Translations under genes and position numbers: made by a program
The notes under the pieces: model-generated
The model's database searches: none
What the model saw: only the letters and a program-made list of their open reading frames with translations
Told to the model about the DNA's origin: nothing
Assembly: GCA_014138725.1 (NCBI GenBank)
Contig: JACJID010000003.1
Coordinates: 930,001-994,000, forward strand
DNA: 64,000 nt
From: Kutzneria viridogrisea
GTDB lineage: Bacteria > Actinomycetota > Actinomycetes > Mycobacteriales > Pseudonocardiaceae
Direction: 5' to 3'
Part shown: piece by piece, positions 1 to 12,275 of the stretch
Numbering within the stretch: the stretch's first letter is position 1
Layout: each line of letters starts with the position of its first letter

Positions 1-815
1 CTCGCACCTCGCTGTTTGGCAACGGCCAGCGCCTCACCGTGGGCGGCTGCAATCCAAGCTCGCAACAACCTGGGAGCTGACCGGTCAGCACGAGCGCGCG
101 CATCGGCAAGGATCTCGACAGCCTCACTCGACTTGCCGATTTCGAGGAGGACGAACGCCTGCTCTGCTGCTGAATGCGCCTCGAACGGGACGGCGCCCGA
201 TTCGACAGCTGCTGCCTTCGCGCGCTCGTAGTGCTGCCATGACTCGGTAGCACTACCAATGTCCAACGCTTGCCACCCGGCCAAGGTGTGCAGTTCGGAC
301 AGCAGTCCAGCGAGCTTGCTCCGGACACCGGGCAACAGGCTGTGCGCCAGCAGGCGCGCCACCTGCTCGGCCTTCGACTTCACCTCATCGTGCGCGACGA
401 TCGCACCCAACTGGCGATCAAGGCGGCGAACGGCATCGAGCTGCTCATTCAGCAGTGCGATTACGCCCGCGTCGACCCGTTCAGACGCACCGAGCATCCG
501 GCGAAGCTCCTCAGCGGACTCGTCAGCGACTCCGTTCCCGCCAGGGGCAGAGAGCAGCTCGCCAATCGACGTGCTGAAGATTCGTTCGAGCAGTCGTGCA
601 GTCGCAGGGCGCACCGAACCGAGCGGGCTGCCGTCCGGCCGTCGCCCGGCAGTGAGCCGTTGCAGATGGCGGACGCTGAGCGTGCCGGGCTCGCGGTGCT
701 CACGCGCGAAGGTCTCGGCGAACTCAACGAACTCCTCGAACGTCTGCCGCCGTTCCCTGATCCGCTGCTCAAGCACCGTGCGCGGGGACTGAGTCGCCCC
801 GTTCCCAAGTCCCAT
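1..815 (-). CDS. Helix-turn-helix/TPR-like regulator, 3' end cut by the window edge
   Basis: An open frame runs leftward from ATG at 815 and leaves the window without a stop (271 codons visible). The N-terminal 90 residues look like a Cro/XRE-type DNA-binding segment (RQTFEEFVEFAETFAREH... then a second basic helix). The rest is an all-helical, Ala-rich repeat region with LAGW, HYERAKAAA, AAEQAFVL and LLRAWIAAAHGEAL. These same blocks occur in the same order in the protein at 8283-9419, so the two are paralogues in one element. Such XRE/TPR proteins are abundant in Pseudonocardiaceae and their ligands are mostly unknown. The start is the best ATG in frame; no strong ribosome binding site is seen. 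Confidence 0.7.
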   Translation of the reverse strand, partial: MGLGNGATQSPRTVLEQRIRERRQTFEEFVEFAETFAREHREPGTLSVRHLQRLTAGRRPDGSPLGSVRPATARLLERIFSTSIGELLSAPGGNGVADESAEELRRMLGASERVDAGVIALLNEQLDAVRRLDRQLGAIVAHDEVKSKAEQVARLLAHSLLPGVRSKLAGLLSELHTLAGWQALDIGSATESWQHYERAKAAAVESGAVPFEAHSAAEQAFVLLEIGKSSEAVEILADARARADRSAPRLLRAWIAAAHGEALAVAKQRGA

Positions 816-1034
816 CCCACCGTCCCGAAATGTCGTGCTCGCGTCGTGCTCACGTCGTGTACCGAGCCGAGAGCCAACGCGAAGCTGATATCAGTCTCGC
901 ACGGCCACCCCAACGTGGTCAGCAGGCTGTCCGGTGGGTTCCTCCTGTTGTTCCGCCTCCCGCCGGACCACTGCCGCTGCTGGGTCAGTTCCCCGACGCT
1001 GGCCCAGCAGCGGCCCGACTACCGGAGGGCACTG

Positions 1035-1334
1035 GTGGCTGAAGACAATGCCGCGACGGCCGTCAGGATCCGGGCATCGTGGGTGACGAGCCTCAGCGAG
1101 GATGCCGACCACGCTGTCACCGACGAAGCGATGGTCAGGGGCATGAGGACCGGCGAGTACGTCGGACTCTGCGGCACACAGTTCGTGCCTGCCGCGATGG
1201 TCGAGCCGTCCCGACCACCGTGCAGTGGTTGTGTCGCGCGCCTGCACCCACGGGCCGATTCCGGGCGGCGCTTGGCACATCGACACCGCAAGGCGAGTTG
1301 GTTGAGCCGCCTACTTCGGCGGTCTGCGTCATGA
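1035..1334 (+). CDS. Small Cys-containing protein of unknown function
   Basis: 99 aa, starting at GTG 1035, chosen because GGAGGG sits 5 nt upstream (1024-1029). The centre reads HAVTDEAMVRGMRTGEYVGL followed by CGT...PCSGC, giving one Cys and then a CxxC about 15 residues later, which could bind zinc. The C-terminal tail is Arg-rich. The stop TGA overlaps the ATG of the next gene (ATGA at 1331-1334), so the two are probably translated together. I do not recognise a named family. It is divergent from the regulator at 1-815; the 220 bp between them (816-1034) should hold both promoters, but no clear motif was picked out. Confidence 0.6.
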   Translation: MAEDNAATAVRIRASWVTSLSEDADHAVTDEAMVRGMRTGEYVGLCGTQFVPAAMVEPSRPPCSGCVARLHPRADSGRRLAHRHRKASWLSRLLRRSAS

Positions 1335-1642
1335 TCGACCCCAGCGCCATCGCCGCTCAGGTGCCAGAGCTACGTCCGTTGATCGAACAACAGGACCCGC
1401 CTTGGGCATTCTACAGGTCGGCCAATCTCGCCATGCCCATCACGGTGACGTGCGCGCGTTTCTACTTCACCAATGGAGCTTGGTACGCCGACGCGCTCCA
1501 TGTTGGGCTACGTGAAGTCGGTGCGTGCCGCACTCGGTGGCGCGGTCCCGGCTCCCTGGTGGAGCCCATGTGGACCTTCACGGGCGAACTCGCCGAGGCG
1601 GTCAACCGCGTGATGCAGCGGCCCAACGCAGAGGACCCCTGA
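1331..1642 (+). CDS. Hypothetical protein, translationally coupled to the gene before it
   Basis: 103 aa from ATG 1331, which overlaps the previous stop in an ATGA. The sequence (PELRPLIEQQDPPWAFYRSA ... FYFTNGAWYADALHVGLREV ... PMWTFTGELAEAVNRVMQ) has the amino-acid balance of a folded soluble protein and no signal peptide or membrane segment. I do not recognise the family. The gene lies between two small Cys-containing proteins (1035-1334 and 1690-1845) in a rightward group of accessory genes, so a shared function is possible but unproven. Confidence 0.55.
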   Translation: MIDPSAIAAQVPELRPLIEQQDPPWAFYRSANLAMPITVTCARFYFTNGAWYADALHVGLREVGACRTRWRGPGSLVEPMWTFTGELAEAVNRVMQRPNAEDP

Positions 1643-1689
1643 AGCGCCAAGCCGCGCGCTCCGCAGGAAGGCCGAAGCGTGGAGTCGGG

Positions 1690-1845
1690 GTGTTCCGTCC
1701 ATTCATTCACGCGATCGACGTGCGCACGCCCTCGATCGAGTTCCGAGGGCTGACGTTGTGGTTCGGCCGTTGCGGCGCGGCGGTCATCGAGGTGACCGGG
1801 CCGGTCCCACGAGGAAGGCAACCCTGTCCGATGTGTTGGAACTGA
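1690..1845 (+). CDS. 51-aa protein with a C-terminal CxxC
   Basis: Short frame starting at GTG 1690 with GGAG at 1681-1684, 5 nt upstream. The product begins FRPFIHAIDVRTPSIEFRGL and ends PRGRQPCPMCWN. With the Cys in FGRCGAAV, the C-terminal CPMC could form a small metal site. It resembles 1035-1334 in layout (Cys, gap, CxxC) though not in clear sequence. No family is recognised. It sits 47 bp after the stop of the preceding gene and 16 bp before the next start, so it is likely part of the same transcript. Confidence 0.45.
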   Translation: MFRPFIHAIDVRTPSIEFRGLTLWFGRCGAAVIEVTGPVPRGRQPCPMCWN

Positions 1846-1861
1846 TCATGGAGTCCGCGCA

Positions 1862-2746
1862 GTGCCAAACCATACAAGCCTGACTCGCCGATTGGCCGCG
1901 ATGCGGCGCTTCTACACAGGAGAGCCGCAGAGCGCGGTCATGCGTCCCATCATTCAGGCACGCGACACGATGGATACCGACGACCGCCGTTGGCTCCTGG
2001 ATGTCCTCCACGGCCACGAGAGCACACCACGGCCACGTGTTCGGGACATGCTGCTGCCGGATGCCTGTGATGCCTCCCAGCGGCATCTGGAGGCCGAGGT
2101 TCTCGCCGCTGTGGCTGACCTCAGCGCGGTGTCGGTGTTCCGGATGGTGCGCCCGGAACCAGACGCGTTGTGGCTTCACGTGAACACGGACGTACTGCCC
2201 GCTCTGCTCGCCCGTGTGCTGCCGCGTGTCACCGCTGACGGAGTGGCGGGTATCGCTGGTGTGCGGATGCGGCAGCACCGCAGGCACATCGAGTTGTACG
2301 AGCCTCTCGGGTCCGCCCGTGTCCTGCTGGCGGGCGTCAGCCAAGGGCAGCAGACCTACGCACTGTCCTACCCCAGGAGTCTTCCAGGGGAACCCTTGTG
2401 GGACAGGAAGGACACGACTCCCGAGGAGACCGCCGTGTGTCCGCGTACGCACGCGTGGCCGGTGGCGCTGGCCAGTGGGGTGCTGCGGCGGGTCTGGCTG
2501 TTCACCGAGCTGCCCCGAGTCGTGTGGTCGGCTGGCACGTGTGCTGTGGAGTGGTTGGGCGGCTGGCCCGTCCCTCAGATGGTGACGGCGCTGCGGCATC
2601 CGGTGTTCGGGCTGGCGGGTGTGACCGTGGTCGAGTGCTACTCGGCTGACCGCAGGGTCATCGTCTTCGTACCGGCAATTGTCCCATTCGGCGGCACAAG
2701 TCAGGTGCGCCGTAGCCAGGACCACCGAGCGGCAGTGCGCTCGTAG
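1862..2746 (+). CDS. Hypothetical protein of the AICE accessory region
   Basis: 294 aa from GTG 1862, with GGAG about 9 nt upstream. The N-terminus (TRRLAAMRRFYTGEP, then RRWLLDVLHG and RPRVRDMLLPDA) is Arg-rich and helical. The middle (FRMVRPEPDALWLHVNTDVL, LARVLPRVTADGV, RHIELYEPLGSARVLLAGV) alternates strands and helices like a globular enzyme or binding protein. No signal peptide or membrane segment is present. I do not recognise a characterised family. The frame is much longer than expected by chance on this strand and has normal protein composition, so I take it as real. Confidence 0.6.
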   Translation: MPNHTSLTRRLAAMRRFYTGEPQSAVMRPIIQARDTMDTDDRRWLLDVLHGHESTPRPRVRDMLLPDACDASQRHLEAEVLAAVADLSAVSVFRMVRPEPDALWLHVNTDVLPALLARVLPRVTADGVAGIAGVRMRQHRRHIELYEPLGSARVLLAGVSQGQQTYALSYPRSLPGEPLWDRKDTTPEETAVCPRTHAWPVALASGVLRRVWLFTELPRVVWSAGTCAVEWLGGWPVPQMVTALRHPVFGLAGVTVVECYSADRRVIVFVPAIVPFGGTSQVRRSQDHRAAVRS

Positions 2747-2776
2747 CTGTCGGTGGGACCAACCAGCGCCGAGGGG

Positions 2777-3409
2777 TCACCAGAGCTTGTCGATCTCTCC
2801 CGGATACAGCTCGATGCGTGCGTTGTGGAACGACGTCTCTGCCTGCTTGCTTCCGGTCGAGAAGAAGGCCCCCATGGTGACCTTGTCGAAGCCTGGCTGG
2901 TCGCTGGGGAACGGATTGCGTGGAGTCCCTCCGACGAGCACCGTTCCAGGCAGCAAGTGCCAGCCTGCGCTCTCATAGAACGCCTGAAGCGGACGGTCAC
3001 AGGTGAACAGACCCAGGTCCAAGCTCCGAGTCGACATCAACTCACGCGCGGCCGACACCAGGTACCGGCCATGCCCGCGACCACGTGCCTCCTGACGCGT
3101 CACCACGGTACTCAGCCCGCCCACGGCATAGCTCCGGCCAGCGTGGACGATCTCCTTGCAGAGGACATCCAGGGCTGCCAGTACAGTTCCGTCGTTCACC
3201 AGGAGCACCGACTGTGGCCGCAGCGCAGGATCATGGGTCAGCCCGTCCTCAGAGCCATCCGAGGCGTTGTCCGGTGGCCATGCCTGACGCTGAAGCTCCA
3301 ACACTTGGGTCCGCAACTCCAACGGAGTGGCTTCTTCGGGAAACACCATGACCTGCATGTAGCGATTCTGTCCACCCACCGCAAAGGCGCAAGTGGTTTT
3401 GAACCCCAC
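2777..3409 (-). CDS. GNAT-family N-acetyltransferase
   Basis: About 210 aa if read from GTG 3409. ATG 3358 (MQVMVFPEEATPLELR) gives a 193-aa form that looks more like the family's usual start, and neither has a strong ribosome binding site. The acetyl-CoA pyrophosphate loop is QEARGRGHGRYLV, preceded by the strand SYAVGGLSTVVT and followed by LGLFTCDRPLQAFYESAGW, the standard GNAT order. The substrate cannot be read from sequence. It is convergent with the gene at 1862-2746. Between its 5' end and the transfer gene lies the GTGACGG repeat cluster. Confidence 0.75.
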   Translation of the reverse strand: MGFKTTCAFAVGGQNRYMQVMVFPEEATPLELRTQVLELQRQAWPPDNASDGSEDGLTHDPALRPQSVLLVNDGTVLAALDVLCKEIVHAGRSYAVGGLSTVVTRQEARGRGHGRYLVSAARELMSTRSLDLGLFTCDRPLQAFYESAGWHLLPGTVLVGGTPRNPFPSDQPGFDKVTMGAFFSTGSKQAETSFHNARIELYPGEIDKLW

Positions 3410-3454
3410 TCGGCAGACGATCCTGACTACATCAGGTGAGGCGGGACGGACTCT

Positions 3455-3636
3455 GTGACGGCTGACCAGGAGGTGACTCGGTCAAGGGAGTTCGGCGACA
3501 TAGGTGACGGGTGGGACGGGGCCACCATGGTCCCGTCCCACCCGTCACAGTCACGGTTTACGCAGGTGGCAGGGCGTATCGGCCCGTCACGGCGGCGGTG
3601 ACGGGCGACAGACGCTGTGACGCCTGCCGTGACAGG
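3455..3636. repeat. Cluster of GTGACGG motifs, candidate clt/transfer recognition locus
   Basis: GTGACGG occurs at 3455-3461, 3504-3510 and 3598-3604 on the plus strand and at 3542-3548 and 3584-3590 on the minus strand, with near copies GTGACGC (3617) and GTGACAG (3630). They form two nested inverted repeats: a 17-bp perfect pair (3504-3520 / 3532-3548) and a 9-bp perfect pair (3582-3590 / 3598-3606). The cluster starts just beyond the 3' end of the FtsK/TraB-like gene. In Streptomyces plasmids, TraB recognises short plasmid-specific repeats (clt) near tra through its C-terminal winged helix. The assignment to clt is inference from position and repeat structure. Confidence 0.45.
3504..3548. 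other. 45-nt near-perfect hairpin downstream of the transfer gene
   Basis: Arms 3504-3520 and 3532-3548 are exact reverse complements (17 bp). The stem can continue with a G-T pair and three more pairs around the loop. It could end transcription of the leftward transfer operon, although there is no T-run. It could equally be a protein-binding or nicking site, since both arms begin with the GTGACGG motif that recurs nearby. Confidence 0.7.
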
Positions 3637-3644
3637 CAAGGCAG

Positions 3645-5780
3645 TCAGTTCCGGCCATCACCGTCTGCCGCTCTGCCCTCGACCTGTGCCACAGCCGCGC
3701 GGATATCAGCAATGAAGTAGCCACGCACCTGACGCAGGCTGCCGTCCGTGGTCGGTATCCGCTCCCGCTTGGACCGGCAGCCGAGGTCGGCCATCTGCTT
3801 GCCGAACGCGGTCGGTTCGATGTCGAGCGCCTCGACCAGTTCGGCCGTGGGCACGAACGCGCGGCCGTCGTGCTCGGCGAGATCGTCACCGATGTAGTCC
3901 ACAACGGACGCGAGCGGCTCAGGCAGCTCCACCAAATCAGCGTCAGGCACGGCGGTTGTGCTCCCGCCGATGGCCTTGGCCACGGCGGCCCGGTCGAGCA
4001 TGTGCACCGAGTCGGCTCCGATCGCGTGGCCGGTCAACGTCCCCGCTTCCTCCCGCAGCATCCGACCTCGTTCGCAGATGGTCTTCCAGTCGGTGTTGGG
4101 CATGTAGTAGGTGCGTACCGTCATCGCGAGCACATCGGCCCCGGCCTCGGTGTCCCCATCGGGTCGGAGGATGCCGACTCCCTTGTGTGAGGCGAACAGC
4201 TTGGAGGAGTCGTAGCCTCGGGTGTTCATCTGCTCGCCGAGAATGATGTTGGAATCGCGCCAGTCCATCACCCGCAGCGCGAACCGTGACCCCAGCACCG
4301 CCCGCAGCGCGGTCGGCAGGCTGGTCGCGTCCGGGCGCTGGGTGGCCAGGATGACCACGATCCCTGCGGCTGGTCCCTTCTTTGCCAGCCAGGTGAGCAG
4401 CTCGCCGAGGTACTTGCCCAGCGGCACTTTCTGCCCCTCGACCTCGATCGGGATGCGGGACTCCAACGGGATGTGCGCCTCGTCCACGATCACTGCCGTG
4501 ATCGGCATGTTCAACGTCGTGTCGCGGGAGATGGCAGGGGTGATCTTGGATTCCGGGCAGGTCTCGTCATCGAGTTCCCGCATCCGCCCGTACCGGCCTT
4601 GGGTCTCCGACACCAACTCCTCAAGCCACGTCTTGAACGCGAACAGGTGCGCGTCGTCGTCCCCGGAGAAGAATCGGTGTGCGCACGGCTGGCAGGCATC
4701 CCAGTCCTTGCCGCCCTTGAAGTCCGCCACGTACAACCGGGTGTAGGGATCCAAGATCAAGCCCGCGGCTGCCAAGCGTTCGGCGAACGTCTTGCCCTGC
4801 CGCGGAATAGCCCCGATCAGCAGCGAGGTCCACACCAGGGGCAGGGACACCTTGCGGCCTCGGGCGTCGTGTCCAAACGGGACCGGACGCCACGCGTCCC
4901 AGTGCCGCACACCCAGCAGCGGTGTCCGCAGGGGAGGCCCCGCGTACGGGTCCTCATCAGCCACCCACAGGGCCACGCGGCCCGCGTGACCTCCGTTGCC
5001 CCTGACCCGCTCGGCGATGAGCTGCACCTCGTCCACCGCCAGCGCCGAGGCGAGCGCCTCCCGATTCTTCACCACGTCGGCGGCCTTCCGGGTCGCGGGC
5101 AGATCAACCGTGATCGCCCACCCCTCCCCCTGGCGGTGTGCGCGTTCCACCAGCCGCAGCGTCTCGTCCTTACCGATCAGCTTCGTGTCCCGAAACGCGT
5201 CCACCAACACCTGGGGGTCCATCGTCCAGGTCAGCGAGCGCGGACCGGACAGCACCGGCTTACGACCGGGGCTGCCGTCCTTGCGACGGCCCAGAACCGC
5301 CAGCGCCACACCAACGGCACCACCGACACTCCACCACACCACCGACCCGCACAGTACGTACGCCACCCACACCACCACGGCCGTCGTGACGGTGGCCGCT
5401 GCGGTGACCTTCCACCGGAACAAGGTCAGCGCGCGGATCTCGGTGAACTTGTCGGCGAGCTTCTCGGACTGCTCGGCCGCGTCGCGGTAGTCGTGAACGG
5501 TGACCCACTTGCGCCACCACCGGACAGCCGCCAGCAGGCCGCGCGCCACGGCACTGACAAATCGGAACGGTGAACGCAGCACCTGAACAACGAAGTCCTT
5601 CAGTGCCTGCGTGAACGCCTGCCGGTTCTTCAGCGCCACCGGTACCCGTGATGAACGCTGCCACCACGACCCGACCGCCTCACGGACGGCCCGCCGACTC
5701 GACCGAGGAGCGGCGTCATCAACCAACTCGCCATCGAACACCGGCGGAGCCTTCTCGATCTCCGAACGTGAGGAAGTCAT
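3645..5780 (-). CDS. FtsK/SpoIIIE-like conjugative DNA translocase (TraB-type)
   Basis: 711 aa. The Walker A loop is GAIPRQGKT (about 323-331) and Walker B is ITAVIVDEAH (about 427-436), as in FtsK/SpoIIIE motors. Two hydrophobic segments (about 124-145 and 147-163) anchor it to the membrane, and a basic C-terminal region (about 620-700) looks like a winged helix. In actinomycetes such a single protein moves double-stranded plasmid or AICE DNA between mycelia. Its start overlaps the stop of the upstream membrane-protein gene in an ATGA (5777-5780), making it the last gene of the transfer operon. The GTGACGG cluster lies directly after its stop, matching the tra-clt layout of Streptomyces plasmids. 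Named TraB-type by architecture; sequence identity to characterised TraB not tested. Confidence 0.85.
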   Translation of the reverse strand: MTSSRSEIEKAPPVFDGELVDDAAPRSSRRAVREAVGSWWQRSSRVPVALKNRQAFTQALKDFVVQVLRSPFRFVSAVARGLLAAVRWWRKWVTVHDYRDAAEQSEKLADKFTEIRALTLFRWKVTAAATVTTAVVVWVAYVLCGSVVWWSVGGAVGVALAVLGRRKDGSPGRKPVLSGPRSLTWTMDPQVLVDAFRDTKLIGKDETLRLVERAHRQGEGWAITVDLPATRKAADVVKNREALASALAVDEVQLIAERVRGNGGHAGRVALWVADEDPYAGPPLRTPLLGVRHWDAWRPVPFGHDARGRKVSLPLVWTSLLIGAIPRQGKTFAERLAAAGLILDPYTRLYVADFKGGKDWDACQPCAHRFFSGDDDAHLFAFKTWLEELVSETQGRYGRMRELDDETCPESKITPAISRDTTLNMPITAVIVDEAHIPLESRIPIEVEGQKVPLGKYLGELLTWLAKKGPAAGIVVILATQRPDATSLPTALRAVLGSRFALRVMDWRDSNIILGEQMNTRGYDSSKLFASHKGVGILRPDGDTEAGADVLAMTVRTYYMPNTDWKTICERGRMLREEAGTLTGHAIGADSVHMLDRAAVAKAIGGSTTAVPDADLVELPEPLASVVDYIGDDLAEHDGRAFVPTAELVEALDIEPTAFGKQMADLGCRSKRERIPTTDGSLRQVRGYFIADIRAAVAQVEGRAADGDGRN

Positions 5781-6619
5781 TGCCGCACCTCACTTTCCCG
5801 CGTGGCATCGTTCGCAACAGAGGCAGCAGTACGCTCCACTTCGGACCGAAACGTTGCCGCCAACCGGGGCGACAGGCCCCGCGCGCAATCAGTGACCGAC
5901 CGGACCCACGCGGGGGTGACCTTCGTGTCGGGCGACCACGCGGCGCGCGCCTCAGCGAGGTAGTCACCGAACAGCTTCCGACGCCCCTTGGTCCTGACTT
6001 GGTGAACGCTCGGAGGAGGATTCACCACCGAGGCGGTGGTGACCGCCTCGGTCAGCTTGTCCCGCAGATCGGTGACCGCCTCGGCGGCCACGAACACCAC
6101 CAGCGGAGGCACCGAGTGCAGCACGACCCCCGACAACGAACCGGCCGCGTACGCCGCCCAGGTGTTCATCACGTACGTGGCACCCAAGGTGAGCCACTTC
6201 GCCCACCGCACCCACGGGCCGGTCCGCACCTGGTAGCGGGAAGTGATCTGCTCGGCCCGCAGGATCGCCAGCAGCACCAGCGACACCGTGGGGTCCAGCA
6301 GCCACGCAGCCAGCCACGGCAGCGACCACACCGTGGTGCCCGCTGCGGCGAAGGCTTGCACGTTGGTCATCGTGAAGCCAAGCCCAAGCGTGATGCCCGC
6401 CCAGCACAACCGGTCGACCTGTGTGCGCACCTGCTCGATCCGCAGGGCAACCACGTCCGGGTGTGTCTGGTAGGCCCGCCGCTTCGCTGCCTCGGCGGCA
6501 TCCTCGGCGAGTTGCTCGACGCGACTAGGCCGAAGCCAGCGGGTGAGGGGGCCGGGTAGCCGCCCGCAGGCGGCCACCGCTCCCCTCTCCTCTCGATGAG
6601 ACATGGCAGGAGTGCTCAT
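5777..6619 (-). CDS. Multi-pass membrane protein of the transfer operon (DUF2637-like/spread protein candidate)
   Basis: 280 aa. After a cytoplasmic N-terminus there are about four hydrophobic segments (LCWAGITLGLGFTMTNVQAF; LAAWLLDPTVSLVLLAIL; WLTLGATYVMNTWAAYAAG; SGVVLHSVPPLVVFVAAEAV), then a soluble Arg-rich C-terminus of about 100 residues. The layout resembles the DUF2637-type membrane proteins often found beside tra genes in AICEs and may correspond functionally to Spd spread proteins, which help plasmid DNA move along hyphae. Start and stop overlap both neighbours by 4 nt, so its product is probably needed together with the translocase. The function is inferred from context. Confidence 0.65.
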   Translation of the reverse strand: MSTPAMSHREERGAVAACGRLPGPLTRWLRPSRVEQLAEDAAEAAKRRAYQTHPDVVALRIEQVRTQVDRLCWAGITLGLGFTMTNVQAFAAAGTTVWSLPWLAAWLLDPTVSLVLLAILRAEQITSRYQVRTGPWVRWAKWLTLGATYVMNTWAAYAAGSLSGVVLHSVPPLVVFVAAEAVTDLRDKLTEAVTTASVVNPPPSVHQVRTKGRRKLFGDYLAEARAAWSPDTKVTPAWVRSVTDCARGLSPRLAATFRSEVERTAASVANDATRESEVRQ

Positions 6620-6948
6620 CGCCTGTCACCCCTGCGGCGTGCCGGACCTTCGAGCGTGCTCACCGTCAATGCCTTGGTGAGCACATAGGCGGCGAACAGG
6701 TCCGGCAGGGCGAGCACCACCAGGAGCAGCGTCGTGTTGTCCGGGTGGGTGATCACGACACACTGCACCCCGAGAATCACACCGCCACCGAGCAGCACCC
6801 GACCGGCCAGCGACACCAGCCGTGCCCCGGTGCGTGCTGCCTCGGCTGCGGCCTTCGCTCGGCGGCGTCCAGCGCGCCACACCACGAACAACCCGAGCAG
6901 CACGCCCATCCCGGCGAGGAGAGGAAGCACCGGCACGTCCACGCTCAT
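6616..6948 (-). CDS. Small membrane protein of the transfer operon
   Basis: 110 aa from ATG 6948, chosen because this ATG overlaps the stop of the WhiB-like gene (ATGA, 6945-6948); an upstream in-frame start at 6981 lacks that coupling. Hydrophobic segments are VPVLPLLAGMGVLLGLFVVW near the N-terminus and two in the second half (VLLGGGVILGVQCVVI; TLLLVVLALPDLFAAYVLT), separated by an Ala/Arg-rich linker. No family is recognised. Small membrane proteins of this type (Spd-like) commonly lie beside tra in conjugative elements of this phylum. Confidence 0.6.
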   Translation of the reverse strand: MSVDVPVLPLLAGMGVLLGLFVVWRAGRRRAKAAAEAARTGARLVSLAGRVLLGGGVILGVQCVVITHPDNTTLLLVVLALPDLFAAYVLTKALTVSTLEGPARRRGDRR

Positions 6949-7283
6949 GACGACCGCCCTCCCCTGCGCCGAGCGCGCCACGCGGCGTAAGCGGCTCGCC
7001 TGTCCTCTTCGGACAGCGCACCCCAGACGCCGACTGTCTCGTCACCGGCAGTGCGGAACTCCAGTTCCAAGCACTGCCGACGCACCGTGCAGCCCTCGCA
7101 GATCCGGGCTGCGGCCTCCCGGTCGGTGAGGTCGTCACCGGTCCACTCGGGCTCCTCATCGGTGGCGACCAGCCACATGCAGGCCCCGTCAGCGGTCACG
7201 ATCTCCAACAGCACGTTGTCGGGTGCCTCGGCGAACCGGTCGAGATCGGCCGCGATCACCTCGAAGTAGTCATCGGGGTTCAC
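6945..7283 (-). CDS. WhiB-like iron-sulfur regulator carried by the AICE
   Basis: About 112 aa. The four Cys of the Wbl family are seen as GACMW, then CEGC-x5-C, followed by the GVWGALSEEDRR turn and a basic C-terminal tail (ARRRGGRSS). Wbl proteins bind a [4Fe-4S] cluster and act with the primary sigma factor. GTG 7283 overlaps the upstream stop as GTGA (7280-7283); GTG 7286 is an alternative one codon earlier. It sits between the excisionase-like gene and the membrane proteins in the transfer operon, so it may tune expression of the element. Wbl genes are known on actinomycete plasmids and phages. Confidence 0.85.
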   Translation of the reverse strand: MNPDDYFEVIAADLDRFAEAPDNVLLEIVTADGACMWLVATDEEPEWTGDDLTDREAAARICEGCTVRRQCLELEFRTAGDETVGVWGALSEEDRRAAYAAWRARRRGGRSS

Positions 7284-7561
7284 CACGACGCACCCCCGGT
7301 CAGCCGAGCAACCTCACGAGCCGTCCGGCGCTCGGTTGCAATCCGGGCCACGTCAACGCATCCGCCCGACTCGGCGGCTTCAGTGATCAGCTGGTCGAGC
7401 GCGATCGCAGGCACGACGTAGCGGGTACGAACGCGGACGGCAGGGAACGCGTCTTCCCTGATCGCCCGGTAGAGCGTGGCGGGATCAACGCGCAGGATTC
7501 GCGCTGCTTCCCGCACCGTGTAGAACGCCGGTCGACCGGCGCCAGGCATGGCTGTACTCAT
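7280..7561 (-). CDS. xis: Excisionase-like helix-turn-helix protein
   Basis: 93 aa from ATG 7561, chosen for the GGGGA ribosome binding site 8 nt upstream; a longer TTG start at 7576 would lie inside that site. The core YTVREAARILRVDPATLYRA followed by a basic wing (FPAVRVRTRYVVPAIALDQL) is the MerR-like HTH_17 fold of AICE excisionases (RDFs). Such proteins direct the integrase to excise the element. Unlike pSAM2, the gene is not next to int here: regulators and cargo genes lie between. It is first in the leftward transfer operon, so excision and transfer would be co-expressed. The gene symbol is by family, not by tested function. Confidence 0.7.
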   Translation of the reverse strand: MSTAMPGAGRPAFYTVREAARILRVDPATLYRAIREDAFPAVRVRTRYVVPAIALDQLITEAAESGGCVDVARIATERRTAREVARLTGGASW

Positions 7562-7604
7562 TGAATATTTCCCCAAGTGGAGAGAAAGAATAATATCAGC
7601 TCGA

Positions 7605-7624
7605 TAGAGCCAATTACGGCTCTA
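7605..7624. promoter_or_regulatory. Palindromic operator candidate in a divergent AT-rich promoter region
   Basis: TAGAGCC (7605-7611) and GGCTCTA (7618-7624) are exact inverted repeats separated by AATTAC. The site lies in the AT-rich gap (7562-7728) between the leftward xis-tra operon and the rightward regulator at 7729, a natural place for a repressor controlling excision and transfer. The neighbouring regulator at 7729-8106 is the first candidate to bind it. Confidence 0.5.
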
Positions 7625-7728
7625 GAGCAGGCAGAATGCGGCCAATCGCGCGGGCACAAGCTCGGCGTCGCCCCGTGAAATGCACAGTCCGGCTAATCTC
7701 GGCGCTGAGGCGGAGCGCGGAGGAATAC

Positions 7729-8106
7729 GTGTCGGAGGACTGGGCGGCGGTCGCGAAGGCCATCAACGAGCGCGTTCAAGAGCTCGGGCTGCTGCAACGT
7801 GCGGTCGCGGAACGCGCGGACGTCTCGCAGGCGATCGTCCGCGAGTTGCAGTACAACACCGTTGAACGGCGCCGCAGCGCGCGAACGCTCGAAGCGCTCT
7901 CCGTCGCCCTGGAGTGGCACCCCCAGCACCTCACCGCGGTGCTCCGCGGCCGTCGCCCACCAGCACCTGGTGAGGAAGCCGAGGAGGAGCTGTCGGCTCG
8001 TCTGGCCGCGATCGAGGACCGGCTGACCGAGATCACGCAGCGGCTCGATGAGATCAGCAGCCACCTGGCTGCGGCCACCGGCGATGGCGACCGACGCCGC
8101 CAATAG
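7729..8106 (+). CDS. XRE-like helix-turn-helix regulator with C-terminal coiled coil
   Basis: 125 aa from GTG 7729, which has a strong GGAGGA site 5 nt upstream; in-frame starts further upstream lack one. The N-terminal 65 residues (MSEDWAAVAKAINERVQELG, then LLQRAVAERADVSQAIVREL, RSARTLEALSVALEWHPQHL) are a Cro/C1-type helix-turn-helix. The C-terminal 40 residues (EEELSARLAAIEDRLTEITQ...) form a heptad-rich helix suited to dimerisation. Divergent from the xis-whiB-tra operon across an AT-rich, palindrome-bearing gap, it is the best local candidate for the element's maintenance repressor. This role is inferred. Confidence 0.75.
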   Translation: MSEDWAAVAKAINERVQELGLLQRAVAERADVSQAIVRELQYNTVERRRSARTLEALSVALEWHPQHLTAVLRGRRPPAPGEEAEEELSARLAAIEDRLTEITQRLDEISSHLAAATGDGDRRRQ

Positions 8107-8180
8107 CGGCGATGCCGCTCGTGGTGTCCGGCCCTTCGGTCCGGTCACCCGGGAGGCGCTGTTCCTGTTCATGTCTACAG

Positions 8181-8204
8181 AGAACGGCAGTTCAGCGCCG
8201 TTCT
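8181..8204. promoter_or_regulatory. Inverted repeat between two regulator genes
   Basis: AGAACGGC (8181-8188) and GCCGTTCT (8197-8204) are an exact 8-bp inverted repeat with an 8-nt spacer, followed by three TTAACC-type units (GTTAACCC, ATTAACCCC, ATTAACTT; 8219-8250). The hairpin could end the 7729-8106 transcript; the A/T-rich repeats could be the promoter/operator of the gene at 8283. Confidence 0.4.
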
Positions 8205-8282
8205 ACAGTTGGCACCGGTTAACCCGACCCCCATTAACCCCAATTAACTTCGCAGGTCAGGGCGGTTATTCGGTCGGGGGCG

Positions 8283-9419
8283 ATGATGGCGAGGACCAAG
8301 CTTCGCGAGGTACGAGACCAGCTCGGCTACTCCGCCGCCGAGGTGATCAGGATGCTTCTACGACGGGCTTCCATGCTCGGCATTGGCGTGATGTCTGCGA
8401 CCAGCCTGAAGACGAAGCTGTCCGTCTGGGAGAACGGGCACGAGTCGGTCAGTGAGCCGTATCAGCGGCTGTTCAGGGACATCTACGGCCGGACCAACGA
8501 AGAGCTGGGGTTTCCACCTGAGCAGCAGGACTCCGAGGCGTTCGAGCTGCGCTCACGGCTAGCGGTGGCCCGGACCGTGGATGCTGGCACGGTCGAGCTC
8601 TTCCGGCGACAGGTCAACGACGCACGGCACGCTGACCAACGGTTCGGCGGCATCACGCTGCTCGACCAACTTCGCAGCAGCACCAAGCAAGTCGAAGACG
8701 TGCTGGCCTACGGCGCTGGTCGCGGCTGGCGACAACAGCTTGCTGCGGTACTCACGGAAGCGTCCACCCTCGCAGGCTGGCTAGCGCTCGACCGGAACGC
8801 GGTTGGGCAGGCTTGGACGCACTACGAACGCGCGAAGGCCGCAGCACGCGAGGCAGACTCCACGGCACTGCTCGCGCACGCGACCGCCGAGCAGGCTTTC
8901 GTCCTGGTCGACATCGGCGAGACCTCGCACGCCACCGAGCAGTTCGCCGAGGCCCGCAGGCTTGCCGAGCACACTGCCCCACCGCTTCTCCGGGCATGGT
9001 TGGCCGCAGCACACGGCGAAGGCCTCGCCGCTGCCAACCAACGCGAGGAGGCGCTACGCGCCTTCGATGCCGCTGACGCGCTGCTGCCGTCCAACCCTGT
9101 GGACCCAGCGCTGCCGTTCGTGTTCCTCGCTGGTGTGCACCTCGACCGGTGGCGCGGCAACGCTGCCGCCCAACTCGGCGAACCCGAGGCCGTTGCTCAA
9201 CTGGCCGCCGCGCTGCCCCGGCTACCGCCCACCTTCGTTCGCGCGAAGACCAGGATGCTGGTCGACCTCGCATTCGCTTACGCCGCTGCTGGCGACCGAG
9301 ACGCCGCGCTGGAGCACTCTCGACAGGCACGGCGGCTCGGCTCACAGATCAAGTCAGACCGGCAACTACGCCGACTCGGTGGCCTCATCCTGCCCGGCAG
9401 CGCCTCCGGCGTTGCGTGA
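8283..9419 (+). CDS. XRE/TPR-type transcriptional regulator
   Basis: 378 aa from ATG 8283 (a second ATG follows at 8286), with a G-rich site just upstream. Residues 1-75 form a Cro-like DNA-binding region with the signature SLKTKLSVWENGHESVSEPY typical of these Pseudonocardiaceae regulators. The remainder is a helical repeat domain (LAGWLALDRN, HYERAKAAAREA, AAEQAFVLVDIG, LLRAWLAAAHGEG), likely a TPR-like ligand or partner domain. It is paralogous to the cut gene at 1-815. Its 3' end overlaps the convergent Nudix gene by 54 nt, so antisense interplay is possible. The specific signal is unknown. Confidence 0.75.
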   Translation: MMARTKLREVRDQLGYSAAEVIRMLLRRASMLGIGVMSATSLKTKLSVWENGHESVSEPYQRLFRDIYGRTNEELGFPPEQQDSEAFELRSRLAVARTVDAGTVELFRRQVNDARHADQRFGGITLLDQLRSSTKQVEDVLAYGAGRGWRQQLAAVLTEASTLAGWLALDRNAVGQAWTHYERAKAAAREADSTALLAHATAEQAFVLVDIGETSHATEQFAEARRLAEHTAPPLLRAWLAAAHGEGLAAANQREEALRAFDAADALLPSNPVDPALPFVFLAGVHLDRWRGNAAAQLGEPEAVAQLAAALPRLPPTFVRAKTRMLVDLAFAYAAAGDRDAALEHSRQARRLGSQIKSDRQLRRLGGLILPGSASGVA

Positions 9420-9953
9420 CGCGAGGTAGTACAGCAGCGCCACGAGCGTGCCCGCGCCAAGCAGTTCCTTGCGCTGTGCCAACTCCTGAACCCGACTCAG
9501 CGGCACCCACTCGACACGCCCTTGCTCCTCCGTGTCGGTCGGCTCCCCGATGTGCTCAGCGTTGCGCCACAGGTAGATGTCCATCGGCGCCGTCGTCTGC
9601 CCCGGCAACGGCTCGAAGCTGATCAGGTGCTCAGGTTCCCCAACCGGCTGCCACCCGCTCTCCTCGGCGGCTTCACGCGCAGCCGTAACCGCCGCTTCCT
9701 CCCCGTCGTCCACCAACCCACCGAGCAGCTCGTAGCCCCACTGGTCAGTGGCGAACCGGTAGCGCCACAGCATCAGCGCCCGGTCCTGGTCATCCACGAT
9801 CAGGGCGATGGCGATCCTGCCGAGGTGGACAACGTGGTACTCCCACCGCTCACCGTTCGGGGCCTCGACGTCCGCAAGCCCCAGCTTCACCCACCGGTTG
9901 TCGTAGATCAGCCGCTCACCGTAGGTCTTCCACGCTCCGCGCTCCTCCGTCAC
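9366..9953 (-). CDS. Nudix hydrolase, possible Pif-like exclusion factor
   Basis: 195 aa from GTG 9953. The Nudix box is complete: GGLVDDGEEAAVTAAREAAE followed by ESGW, matching Gx5Ex7REUxEExGU. An N-terminal WEYHVVHLGRIAIALIVDD strand region and a C-terminal helical tail complete a typical small Nudix protein. Family members hydrolyse nucleoside diphosphate derivatives. In the AICE pSAM2, the Pif protein that blocks transfer into cells already carrying the element contains a Nudix motif, so a similar exclusion role is plausible here. A housekeeping ADP-ribose-type hydrolase is the alternative. It overlaps the convergent regulator gene by 54 nt. Confidence 0.85.
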   Translation of the reverse strand: MTEERGAWKTYGERLIYDNRWVKLGLADVEAPNGERWEYHVVHLGRIAIALIVDDQDRALMLWRYRFATDQWGYELLGGLVDDGEEAAVTAAREAAEESGWQPVGEPEHLISFEPLPGQTTAPMDIYLWRNAEHIGEPTDTEEQGRVEWVPLSRVQELAQRKELLGAGTLVALLYYLASRNAGGAAGQDEATESA

Positions 9954-10145
9954 GTCAGCAGCCTACGTGCAAGATCAGCGTCGCCAGAAGTGACGGTTTC
10001 CATCGAGTACGAGAAACCTCGGCATCCTGCGGTCATTACGCATATCAAGATCACCGCACAAGCGCTAAAAAGATGAGTATAGTTCACTTTTTGCAAGTCG
10101 ACGGCCAAAGACGACAGGCCCAAGTCGATCCGCTAGCTTGCAGAC

Positions 10146-10820
10146 ATGACATCAAGCACCGAGAGATCGCCCTCGCGCCCGCCTAAAAATCAGCGAGCAC
10201 AGTTGGCAATCGGCTTACTGGCAATACTCGCAATCCTAGGAATACTCGGATATGCAAGCTATGCGATGATCACCGTTTTTCTTGGCCTTCAAAAAGAGGT
10301 TGCCGCAGCAATCCTCGTGGCGTCCGGAACCGTAATATCAGCCACGGTCACCGTGGTAGCAGGAAGACTTATCGAACGTCGCAACATAGCCGATCGCGCG
10401 CAGCAAGAGAAACGAATTCCAATTTATGAGGAATTTGTAAGCGGACTTTTTCAGATGCTCGGCATAGGAAAGCCCCGCAAAGATAGGGTGGAACCAGCGG
10501 AATCGGACGGGGCTCGAGTATTTGGAGACTTCACCACCAAAGCGATCGTTTGGGGCTCAGATAGCGTCCTACAGGCTTGGACTGAAGTCAGGGATCACTT
10601 CAACAGCCTAAACCCGACCGAAGAACGCACTCCGATTGAAAACTACAACGGCCTAATTAAACTCGAAAAGCTCTTGCTAGCAATGCGGAAAGACCTAGGC
10701 TTGCCGGTCAAGAAAATACAGGAAGGAATGCTGCTGGGAACGATAGTTGACGACCTCCGTGCGGCGGCCCAAAATGCCCACACAGCGCAGCAACAAAAAC
10801 TTGCAAAAGAAAGCGAGTAA
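10146..10820 (+). CDS. AT-rich cargo gene: membrane protein of unknown function
   Basis: 224 aa from ATG 10146. Two hydrophobic segments near the N-terminus (LAIGLLAILAILGILGYASY and AAAILVASGTVISATVTVVA) are followed by about 150 soluble residues (IYEEFVSGLFQML, DFTTKAIVWGSDSVLQAWTE, NYNGLIKLEKLLLAMRKDLG). The gene is conspicuously richer in A and T than everything around it (runs such as aaaaag, codons ata, aaa, att), which points to recent acquisition. It lies immediately before the integrase gene, a common site for cargo. Proteins of this build are sometimes annotated in phage-resistance islands, but no defence family is recognised. Confidence 0.7.
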   Translation: MTSSTERSPSRPPKNQRAQLAIGLLAILAILGILGYASYAMITVFLGLQKEVAAAILVASGTVISATVTVVAGRLIERRNIADRAQQEKRIPIYEEFVSGLFQMLGIGKPRKDRVEPAESDGARVFGDFTTKAIVWGSDSVLQAWTEVRDHFNSLNPTEERTPIENYNGLIKLEKLLLAMRKDLGLPVKKIQEGMLLGTIVDDLRAAAQNAHTAQQQKLAKESE

Positions 10821-10841
10821 CAGCCCTCCGGTCTGGTCGGG

Positions 10842-12107
10842 TTATCTAACGCCTCGCTTAGGCATCCTGGATCCAAGAATCTCGGCGGCTTTGCGGTCGG
10901 AGGCGGCTACCCATGCGGCGTAGACGCGCAGCGTGGTGGCGCCTCCGCCGCCGTGGCCGAGGCGACCGGCGACGGTGCGGAGGTCGATTCCGGCGGTGAG
11001 CAGCTCGGTGGCGGAGTAGTGGCGCAGGGCGTGAATGTGGGTGTCAATGCCGAGGCGCTCAGCCATGTCCTTGTAGCGGCTGGACACGGCGTGTGGGGAG
11101 TAGGGCTGCGTTGGGTCGACGTTGCGGACGCCAGAGAACACGTACATGTCCTCGCTGAACTCGGCGCCGTGCTCGGTGAGCCGCTGAGCGCATCTCTCCT
11201 TGTGCTCGCGGAGCAGAACGACGGTCTCGGTGTCGAGCGCGATGCGGCGCATCTGGTGGGTCTTGGTGTCCTTCATGCGGCCGACGCCTTTGCGGAGGAC
11301 ATAGCTGCTGCGGACCTCAATGATTCCTTCGTCAAGGTCGATCCGAGACCACGTCAGCGCGCAGACCTCGCCGCGCCGGATACCGGTCGTCATGACGAGC
11401 CAGACGAGCGTTCCCCAGTCGTTGTCGGCCTCGTAAGCAGCATCGAATAGGCGGGCAGCTTCAGCGGGTGACGGCGGGGTGGGCTGTGGCTGCGGCTGCT
11501 TGGGGCGCTTGGCGATGCGGGCGGGGTTGGTGTCGATCCACTCCCAGCGCACGGCAGCGCTGAGTGCGCCGCTCATGATCGAGTGGAGCTGCCGGACGGT
11601 CGAGGCGGCCAGAGGCTTGCACGTGTGCGGCTTGCACTTCTCGTCCTTGCAGTCGTGCTCGCCCTCAGCACGGTGCTCAACGAACGGCTTGCCGTCACAG
11701 CGGGCTCGGCAGCGGCGAAGTTCGGCGTAGAGGGCTTCGAGCATCCGCGTGGAGACCTTGCGTACGGGCTCGACACCGAGCACGGGCCGGATGTTGCGCT
11801 TGACGTAGCCCCGGTACATCTCGCGCGTGCCCTCGTCCAGCTCAGCAGTGCGCAGCCACTCGTCCAGCACGTAACCGAACGAGACCGAGGAAGTAGCAGA
11901 GCGCTGCTGGTCAACCTGGCTCAGCAGCCGCGTCATGACCTTGTCGGCAGCGCGCTGCGCAGCCTTGTCGGCGCCCTTGACCGTCTCGGTCAGGTACACG
12001 TCCTTGCCGGTCACGGGGTCGACGCCGGAGAACACCCGGACCTGGAGCGAGTTGCCCCGCTGACGGACGCTGCCACGCCTGCGACGCTGGTCTGCTGACT
12101 CGGCCAT
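10842..12107 (-). CDS. int: Tyrosine site-specific integrase of the AICE
   Basis: 421 aa from ATG 12107 (GTG 12125 would add six residues). The catalytic set is complete: Arg244 in TTGIRRGE, His359 and Arg362 in HALRH, His385 in GRLGHGG and Tyr396 in TLRVYAAW. An N-terminal SAM-like core-binding domain spans about 75-190. Within it is an unusual Cys/His cluster (C133, C137, H145, H151, C153, C158, H161, C163) that could hold zinc. The gene ends 22 bp after the AT-rich cargo gene and starts 93 bp from the tRNA 3' end, the standard arrangement for AICE integrases that recombine at a tRNA 3' end. Confidence 0.93.
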   Translation of the reverse strand: MAESADQRRRRGSVRQRGNSLQVRVFSGVDPVTGKDVYLTETVKGADKAAQRAADKVMTRLLSQVDQQRSATSSVSFGYVLDEWLRTAELDEGTREMYRGYVKRNIRPVLGVEPVRKVSTRMLEALYAELRRCRARCDGKPFVEHRAEGEHDCKDEKCKPHTCKPLAASTVRQLHSIMSGALSAAVRWEWIDTNPARIAKRPKQPQPQPTPPSPAEAARLFDAAYEADNDWGTLVWLVMTTGIRRGEVCALTWSRIDLDEGIIEVRSSYVLRKGVGRMKDTKTHQMRRIALDTETVVLLREHKERCAQRLTEHGAEFSEDMYVFSGVRNVDPTQPYSPHAVSSRYKDMAERLGIDTHIHALRHYSATELLTAGIDLRTVAGRLGHGGGGATTLRVYAAWVAASDRKAAEILGSRMPKRGVR

Positions 12108-12150
12108 ACGGCCCAGCGTAAGCACCAGTTCAAGGACAGAAACATGGACA

Positions 12151-12171
12151 AAGATCCGCTCTGCGGATCTT
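12151..12171 (-). terminator. Short palindrome between integrase and tRNA
   Basis: AAGATCCGC and GCGGATCTT form a perfect 9-bp stem with a 3-nt loop. Read on the minus strand, the downstream side is TTTG, so it may end the tRNA transcript. Because it lies in the element's att region, it could instead be an arm site for Int or Xis. Confidence 0.45.
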
Positions 12172-12200
12172 GAACGGCCCGTCTACGCTGGTAGATGCGG

Positions 12201-12235
12201 TAGGGCGGGTCGGGCTCGAACCGACGACCTGACAG
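12201..12235 (-). other. Inferred attachment site (att) overlapping the tRNA 3' end
   Basis: AICE integrases recombine in the 3' part of tRNA genes, so the core should lie in the T-arm and acceptor 3' strand of this tRNA. No second copy of this sequence was seen in 1-12200, so the partner att site must lie left of the window. The exact core cannot be set without it. Confidence 0.4.
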
Positions 12236-12275
12236 ATTATGAGTCTGCTGCTCTGACCAGCTGAGCTACCGCCCC
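12201..12275 (-). tRNA. tRNA-Met (anticodon CAT), AICE integration site
   Basis: The cloverleaf folds: acceptor GGGGCGG / CCGCCCT (first pair G-U), D-arm GCTCAGCTGGTCAGAGC, anticodon loop CTCATAA with CAT, T-arm GTCGGTTCGAGCCCGAC. The discriminator is A and CCA is not encoded. The sequence is elongator-like rather than initiator-like; tRNA-Ile2 (CAT with lysidine) is the alternative. The integrase lies next to the 3' end. A G-U first pair, where a G-C is usual, may come from the element rebuilding the 3' end on integration. Confidence 0.92.

Follow-up and report, generated by a model that had tools for sequence, protein, structure and literature searches.

The locus studied here raises the question of what a dense array of short repeats is doing directly behind the gene of a TraB/FtsK-like DNA translocase, and whether it is the clt, the transfer locus, of the element that carries both. 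Below we describe the array and its element, follow both through related genomes, and weigh the possible functions of the array.

Repeat array behind the translocase gene

In the window (the whole stretch of 64,000 nucleotides from Kutzneria viridogrisea that was analysed), the gene tra, recognised by sequence matches to FtsK/TraB, encodes a 711-aa protein at 3645–5780 on the minus strand. As its 3' end lies at 3645, the array sits behind tra, in a gap of 235 bp (3410–3644) that is followed by a gene for a GNAT acetyltransferase (2777–3409, minus strand). The predicted clt, supported by motif counts, shuffles and a match to the locus model R1 (see below), spans 3443–3637 (minus strand) and consists of ACCCGTCAC-type sites in both orientations.

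The initial annotation had described five exact copies of GTGACGG in both orientations behind the FtsK/TraB-like gene, two near matches, a perfect 17-bp inverted repeat and a 9-bp one. All five copies were located within 3455–3604: at 3455 (3455–3461), 3504 and 3598 (3598–3604) on the plus strand, and at 3542 and 3584 on the minus strand. Both inverted repeats were found as well, while the near matches had been undercounted: GTGAC occurs nine times within 3455–3633, so that they number at least four (GTGACTC at 3473, CAGTCAC at 3548–3554, GTGACGC at 3617, and GTGACAG at 3629). Variant sites GGGACGG, not listed in the initial annotation, are present at 3443, 3513, and 3533.

In a repeat search, the arms of the 17-bp repeat were placed at 3504–3520 and 3532–3548 (span 3504–3548), with longer arms of 21 nt that are 95% complementary. 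Each 17-bp arm is composed of two tandem sites, GTGACGG-gt-GGGACGG, and such two-site arms are present too in four related loci (L031, L032, L061, and L068). The other block of inverted sites is the 9-bp repeat GCCCGTCAC/GTGACGGGC (3582–3590 and 3598–3606; span 3582–3606), which is a conserved block in the alignment A3. Between the two site blocks, the locus alignment identifies a conserved core, ACCTGCGTAAAC (3556–3567, minus strand), which the initial annotation had not noted either.

A chance cluster was rejected, since none of 20,000 dinucleotide shuffles of 3410–3644 reached five copies of GTGACGG (maximum 4); likewise, the biggest 200-bp cluster over 300 shuffles of the whole window held four. 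Under a weaker control, which counted clustering of any 7-mer, five copies were reached in 7 of 3,000 shuffles. Over the whole window the motif occurs at the chance level (26 found vs. 23.5 expected), and outside the array there are never more than two copies per 200 bp. Genome-wide motif density was rejected as an explanation by a count of inverted pairs: the pattern CCGTCAC-N0-25-GTGACGG has 8 places in the 10.2-Mb genome vs. 5 for the reversed control pattern.

The element and its translocase

The ends of the element are a perfect 45-bp repeat of tRNA-Met, whose copies are 14.8 kb apart: the right one at 12200–12244 (minus strand), the left one outside the window, at contig C3:927433–927477. 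Domain searches identified an excisionase-like HTH protein (7280–7576) and a tyrosine integrase (10842–12125), both on the minus strand; further products include WhiB-like, XRE-like, and NsdA-family regulators and NUDIX, SLATT, and SepF domain proteins, and two proteins of unknown family precede tra. Comparison of 15 element proteins with Pfam and of 10 with NCBIfam revealed no replication initiator. The 14.8-kb element (window 1–12244 plus L111:15433–18000) thereby combines integrase, excisionase, TraB-like tra and flanking repeats, which are traits of AICEs, whereas the replication gene that AICEs as usually defined possess was not recognised among its scanned proteins; an initiator of an unknown type may be present. 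The cargo at its left end (L111:15925–17401) comprises a SLATT/DUF4231 protein beside a SepF-domain protein.

Matches of tra to the FtsK/TraB profiles fall far under the curated cut-offs, and matches to FtsK structures have E about 1e-4. Its plasmid relatives are annotated as FtsK/SpoIIIE (best E 5e-82), and none of the 80 records from the plasmid search covers 80% of tra. Among the matches listed, the closest named relatives come from Kutzneria (82–84% identity). An AlphaFold2 model of the C-terminus, built from the alignment A1, reaches a pLDDT of at least 90 for 65 of 115 residues and places a putative winged helix at codons 3663–3917 (minus strand), with the recognition helix at approximately residues 656–665. 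Structure comparison of the model yielded winged-helix matches; Foldseek, run with the same model, found nothing at E ≤ 0.001, and the VIA matches listed do not include FtsK gamma. We thus predict, from the model, that the tra product is a TraB/FtsK-type motor with a C-terminal winged helix.

Conservation of the array behind tra

To the 30 tra loci from one search we added the best 80 of 148 from another, and the resulting 110 loci were merged into 94 distinct ones, the window included. Searching for GTGACGG clusters beside tra in relatives had been proposed in the initial annotation as a check, and such an array follows tra in 53 of the 94 loci (layout 1) and is absent there in 41 (layout 2). 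The split is based on the number of sites in the interval from −120 to +250 bp relative to the tra end, except that one locus (L085), whose repeats are the variant CCTGTCC, was assigned manually to layout 1; hence 53 of 94 is a count and not an independent test.

In layout 1 the sites follow the consensus ACCCGTCAC(A/G); they occur in either orientation and flank a conserved core, ACCWGCGNAAAC. The 344 layout-1 sites read A (69%), C (77%), CCGTC, A (74%), C, and A (59%) or G (29%), and they carry information at flanking positions that were not used for picking them; the flanks of 411 control matches from other parts of these loci are flat. Two blocks of sites can be distinguished. The first, direct/inverted, begins in many loci at the first base past the stop codon of tra; the second is inverted and has one or two sites per arm. 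The spacer between them holds the core, recognisable in most but not all loci. Natural variants of the site are ACCCGTCAC, GCCGTCAC (as in L048), CCCGTCCC, and CCCGTCTC. Many relatives lack the long hairpin arms and keep the sites and the core. The genes downstream of the array differ from locus to locus, and XRE and WhiB-like regulators are conserved with tra in both layouts. In one locus tra lies in separated pieces, with the array still behind the last of them (L149:4516–7696).

The sites within one element change in concert. Sites of the same locus share the base at position −1 and the variable base beyond shuffles (z = 11.4 and 12.7, respectively) and also the base at position −2 (z = 7.1), with no sharing at +1 (z = −1.9); these shuffles do not preserve relatedness, so shared ancestry of adjacent sites may contribute to the signal. 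No stronger covariation was seen between the −1 base and the winged-helix residues than between that base and other residues of the translocase (p = 0.087 for 69 loci; p = 0.29 for the 53 layout-1 loci alone); independent pairs are few (5). The lack of an array behind tra tracks changes at tra residues 660 and 684, a correlation that is confounded by phylogeny. The argument that winged-helix residues explain the array-less loci was withdrawn, because a wider scan placed the locus elsewhere in many of the 41.

Specificity of the locus model

R1, a model of the locus built from sequence only (21 rows, 111 positions), matches the window at 3510–3613, the window being one of its training rows. Across 120 genomes of the host's family, it identified 43 places at E below 1e-6 (44 rows, two neighbours merged). 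Directly behind tra are 36 of these places (28 of 30 fetched loci by tblastn and 8 of the other 13 by coordinates), including some where tra is cut by a contig end or broken and several from elements that also trained R1. Of the remainder, one belongs to a layout-2 element, where it is 6.3 kb upstream of tra, and for six no tra was found in the stretches fetched, some of these being at contig ends.

Among 394 genomes drawn from the host's class, R1 at E ≤ 1e-5 matches five, three of them in the host's own family. Rows away from tra with E of about 1e-4 to 1e-3 include those in G015, G018, G116, and G066:C23, as well as one in the host's own genome (G000:C1:2212974); the class-wide genome scan also gave a row in G574. 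A convincing array with the core is present in a genome of another family (G414; L229:9864–9946), where the family tra was not found within about 9.5 kb on either side.

Relatives with the locus upstream of tra

Layout-2 elements differ in gene order: a serine recombinase gene, an assignment checked by Pfam for one member, comes right after tra in 35 of 37 long layout-2 loci vs. 0 of 42 long layout-1 loci. The whole-genome R1 scan covered 36 of the 41 layout-2 loci. In 20 of the 36, the match shares a contig with tra, contigs being recognised by their length, and lies upstream of it, at 4.4–11.8 kb in 19 of these and at about 6.6 kb in L090. A targeted scan of 17 stretches (L090 and 16 others) added four loci (L098, L094, L069, and L101) at 5.6–11.6 kb upstream with E below 0.01, for a total of 24/36; L250, which covers one L090 copy, gave no row in it. 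The two scans yielded no confident match for 12 of the 36, and the weak matches in L046 (E = 0.026) and L089 (E = 0.1) were left uncounted.

Most of the 19 upstream loci show the same blocks and core, some in degenerate form only. At position −1, the layout-2 sites have G in 57% and C in 27% of cases, vs. C in 75% and G in 18% in layout 1. When 7-mers were clustered de novo in the flanks of the 41 loci (up to 5 kb, but 1.5 kb for some), CCGTCAC ranked first in L066 alone, at the upstream place that was later confirmed; the other 40 loci had other top words. When the C-terminus is left out of the tra tree, the layouts are interleaved, with at least eight changes, five of them forced by well supported branches. 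These comparisons suggest that in many layout-2 loci the locus has moved and has not been lost. The presence of the same structure upstream of tra fits a cis-acting site, not a tra terminator.

Comparison with described clt loci

The clt repeat of the plasmid pSVH1, GACCCGGA, differs in sequence from the array sites. According to the published descriptions, the pSVH1 clt contains 8-bp repeats (TRS) that are read by the winged helix of TraB (PMC3583192, PMC4170104). The clt of pWTY27, described as a 175-bp region made up of 16 bp of traA and the 159 bp that follow the gene, contains repeats TGACACC and CCCGCCC together with inverted repeats, was footprinted with TraA, and is needed for transfer (PMC3583192). 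Like the array, it is situated at the 3' end of tra, from where it extends for about 160 bp, and it combines 7-bp repeats, one family of which contains the TGAC of the array sites, with inverted repeats (PMC3583192). Its repeat sequences differ from those of the array, pWTY27 is a theta plasmid with replication genes of its own, and the accessible part of its description does not mention a core like that of the array (PMC3583192). The clt loci of pJV1 and pIJ101, reported to act in cis for transfer, share direct and inverted repeats with the array (PMC3583192). However, their repeats (CCGCACA[C/G][C/G] and GC/AAAC) are different, and the pIJ101 clt is close to korB.

The window's element, judged from its genes, resembles AICEs of the pSAM2 type in being integrative and having one TraB-like protein, by which those elements are moved (PMC9513070). 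On the other hand, AICEs are defined in this source with a rep gene, which was not found in the window's element; for their archetype pSAM2, no clt motif has been described (PMC9513070). A described clt for such elements was not found in our literature search, which was thin on subscription journals.

Functional interpretation of the array

We consider it likely that the array is the clt of the element and is read by its TraB-type translocase. Support for this interpretation, already suggested in the initial annotation, is comparative: the array stands behind tra in 53 of 94 loci and upstream of it in 24 of 36 others, and a winged helix is predicted for the translocase. By analogy with the pWTY27 clt and pSVH1 TraB, the most likely role of the array is to load the translocase onto the circle formed by excision; that TraB is the reader, and that loading and DNA transfer take place, we infer. 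After excision, the C-terminal winged helix would recognise the ACCCGTCAC(A/G) sites, and TraB-type hexamers would assemble on the array. Complex formation would be nucleated by the sites of both orientations, in two blocks around the core, and the complex would then pump double-stranded DNA into the neighbouring cell. The conserved core is more than a pure array of binding sites explains, and it may be a structural spacer, the site of a second protein, or an origin. A signature that is conserved across one bacterial family and has natural variants makes TraB specificity and cross-mobilisation directly testable, as well as a search for mobilisable elements.

An origin of replication is an unlikely alternative, in which the excised circle would replicate from the iteron-like sites and the core, using a host protein or an initiator that escaped recognition. 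An origin could likewise contain repeats, inverted repeats and a core that is conserved, pWTY27 is described as having repeat-rich iterons besides its clt (PMC3583192), and the binding sites alone leave the core unexplained. Against it, no initiator turned up among the element proteins scanned with Pfam (15) and NCBIfam (10), nor in a Pfam scan of the four layout-2 proteins from L183.

It is very unlikely that the array is a cluster of operators for the element's own XRE or WhiB-like regulator, conserved along with tra, even though these regulators occur in both layouts and the array precedes the next gene. A simple scan of 2700–4200 detected no promoter-like site, the genes after the array vary between loci, and layout 2 has the array elsewhere. 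Moreover, four tra-less loci discussed below (L232, L233, L227, and L228) carry the array, and the stretches fetched for them contain no match to the tra-linked XRE or WhiB-like proteins, although L233 does have other XRE-type proteins. A conserved XRE or WhiB-like protein may nevertheless be the reader of the array instead of TraB.

A transcription terminator or structured RNA behind tra seems highly improbable. The minus-strand RNA of 3410–3650 does fold better than shuffles (−110.3 kcal/mol; z = −4.65), but many relatives that have retained the sites and the core are without long hairpin arms, and in layout 2 the locus is kilobases from tra. T-tailed terminators and sigma-70 promoter patterns were rejected, as the simple scan of 2700–4200 found none, and an Rfam RNA was rejected for lack of a match at the array. 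Finally, an attachment or accessory site of the integrase is hardly credible: none of the 42 long layout-1 loci has the layout-2 serine recombinase and some arrays directly follow an integrase gene, yet the same array accompanies tyrosine integrases and two distantly related serine recombinases (23–28% identical), and an att site was rejected because the mapped element ends lie about 6.0 and 8.6 kb away.

Arrays behind integrase genes

In 11 genomes of one genus, R1 detected 20 localities (E ≤ 1e-6, merged rows), nine of which are behind the family tra and 11 are not. Three of the latter are on contigs under 7 kb and two are at the ends of one contig, so that tra may be cut off there. Five loci (L232, L233, L227, L228, and L145) have the array directly behind an integrase gene and no tra in the stretch fetched. 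The integrase of L232 is a tyrosine integrase, 71% identical to that of the tra-element family and encoded beside tRNA-Met; in the genome of L232 the family tra is absent at E ≤ 1e-30, and a second att was not found, with only 2.3 kb of contig past the array. L233, L227, and L228 share one family of serine recombinases (74–94% identical to each other), and L145 has a reading frame with a weak match to the recombinase zinc ribbon. By Pfam, catalytic domains are complete in L232 and L227 only. The serine recombinase reading frames of L233, L228, and L145 look incomplete at the N-terminus, and in the first two the resolvase domain lacks its start in the Pfam match; hence, these two are possibly remnants, unless a wrong start codon was chosen.

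We tentatively suggest, as a possibility somewhat less probable than its opposite, that the locus is a transferable address label captured by non-conjugative elements, which would combine an integrase with an array, without tra, and pirate TraB-type transfer of double-stranded DNA. Candidates for such elements are L232 and L227, and possibly also L233, L228, and L145. If true, this would define a class of integrative elements using TraB-type double-stranded DNA transfer with clt alone. The double-stranded TraB mechanism is described in a review of integrative mobilizable elements that, in its accessible part, names no mobilizable element using this mechanism (PMC5704250).

Several other features were observed around the tra-less arrays. 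Behind the single serine recombinase gene of L233 there are two array copies about 330 bp apart, 83% identical (L233:9504–10067). A small protein of about 100 aa recurs nearby (L232:1095–1406, L233:6399–6740, and L146:3663–3959), the first two copies being 65% identical and the third similar by eye. A fragment of a DUF222-type protein precedes the serine recombinase in both L227 (7922–8467) and L233 (11585–12094), with 68.5% identity between the two.
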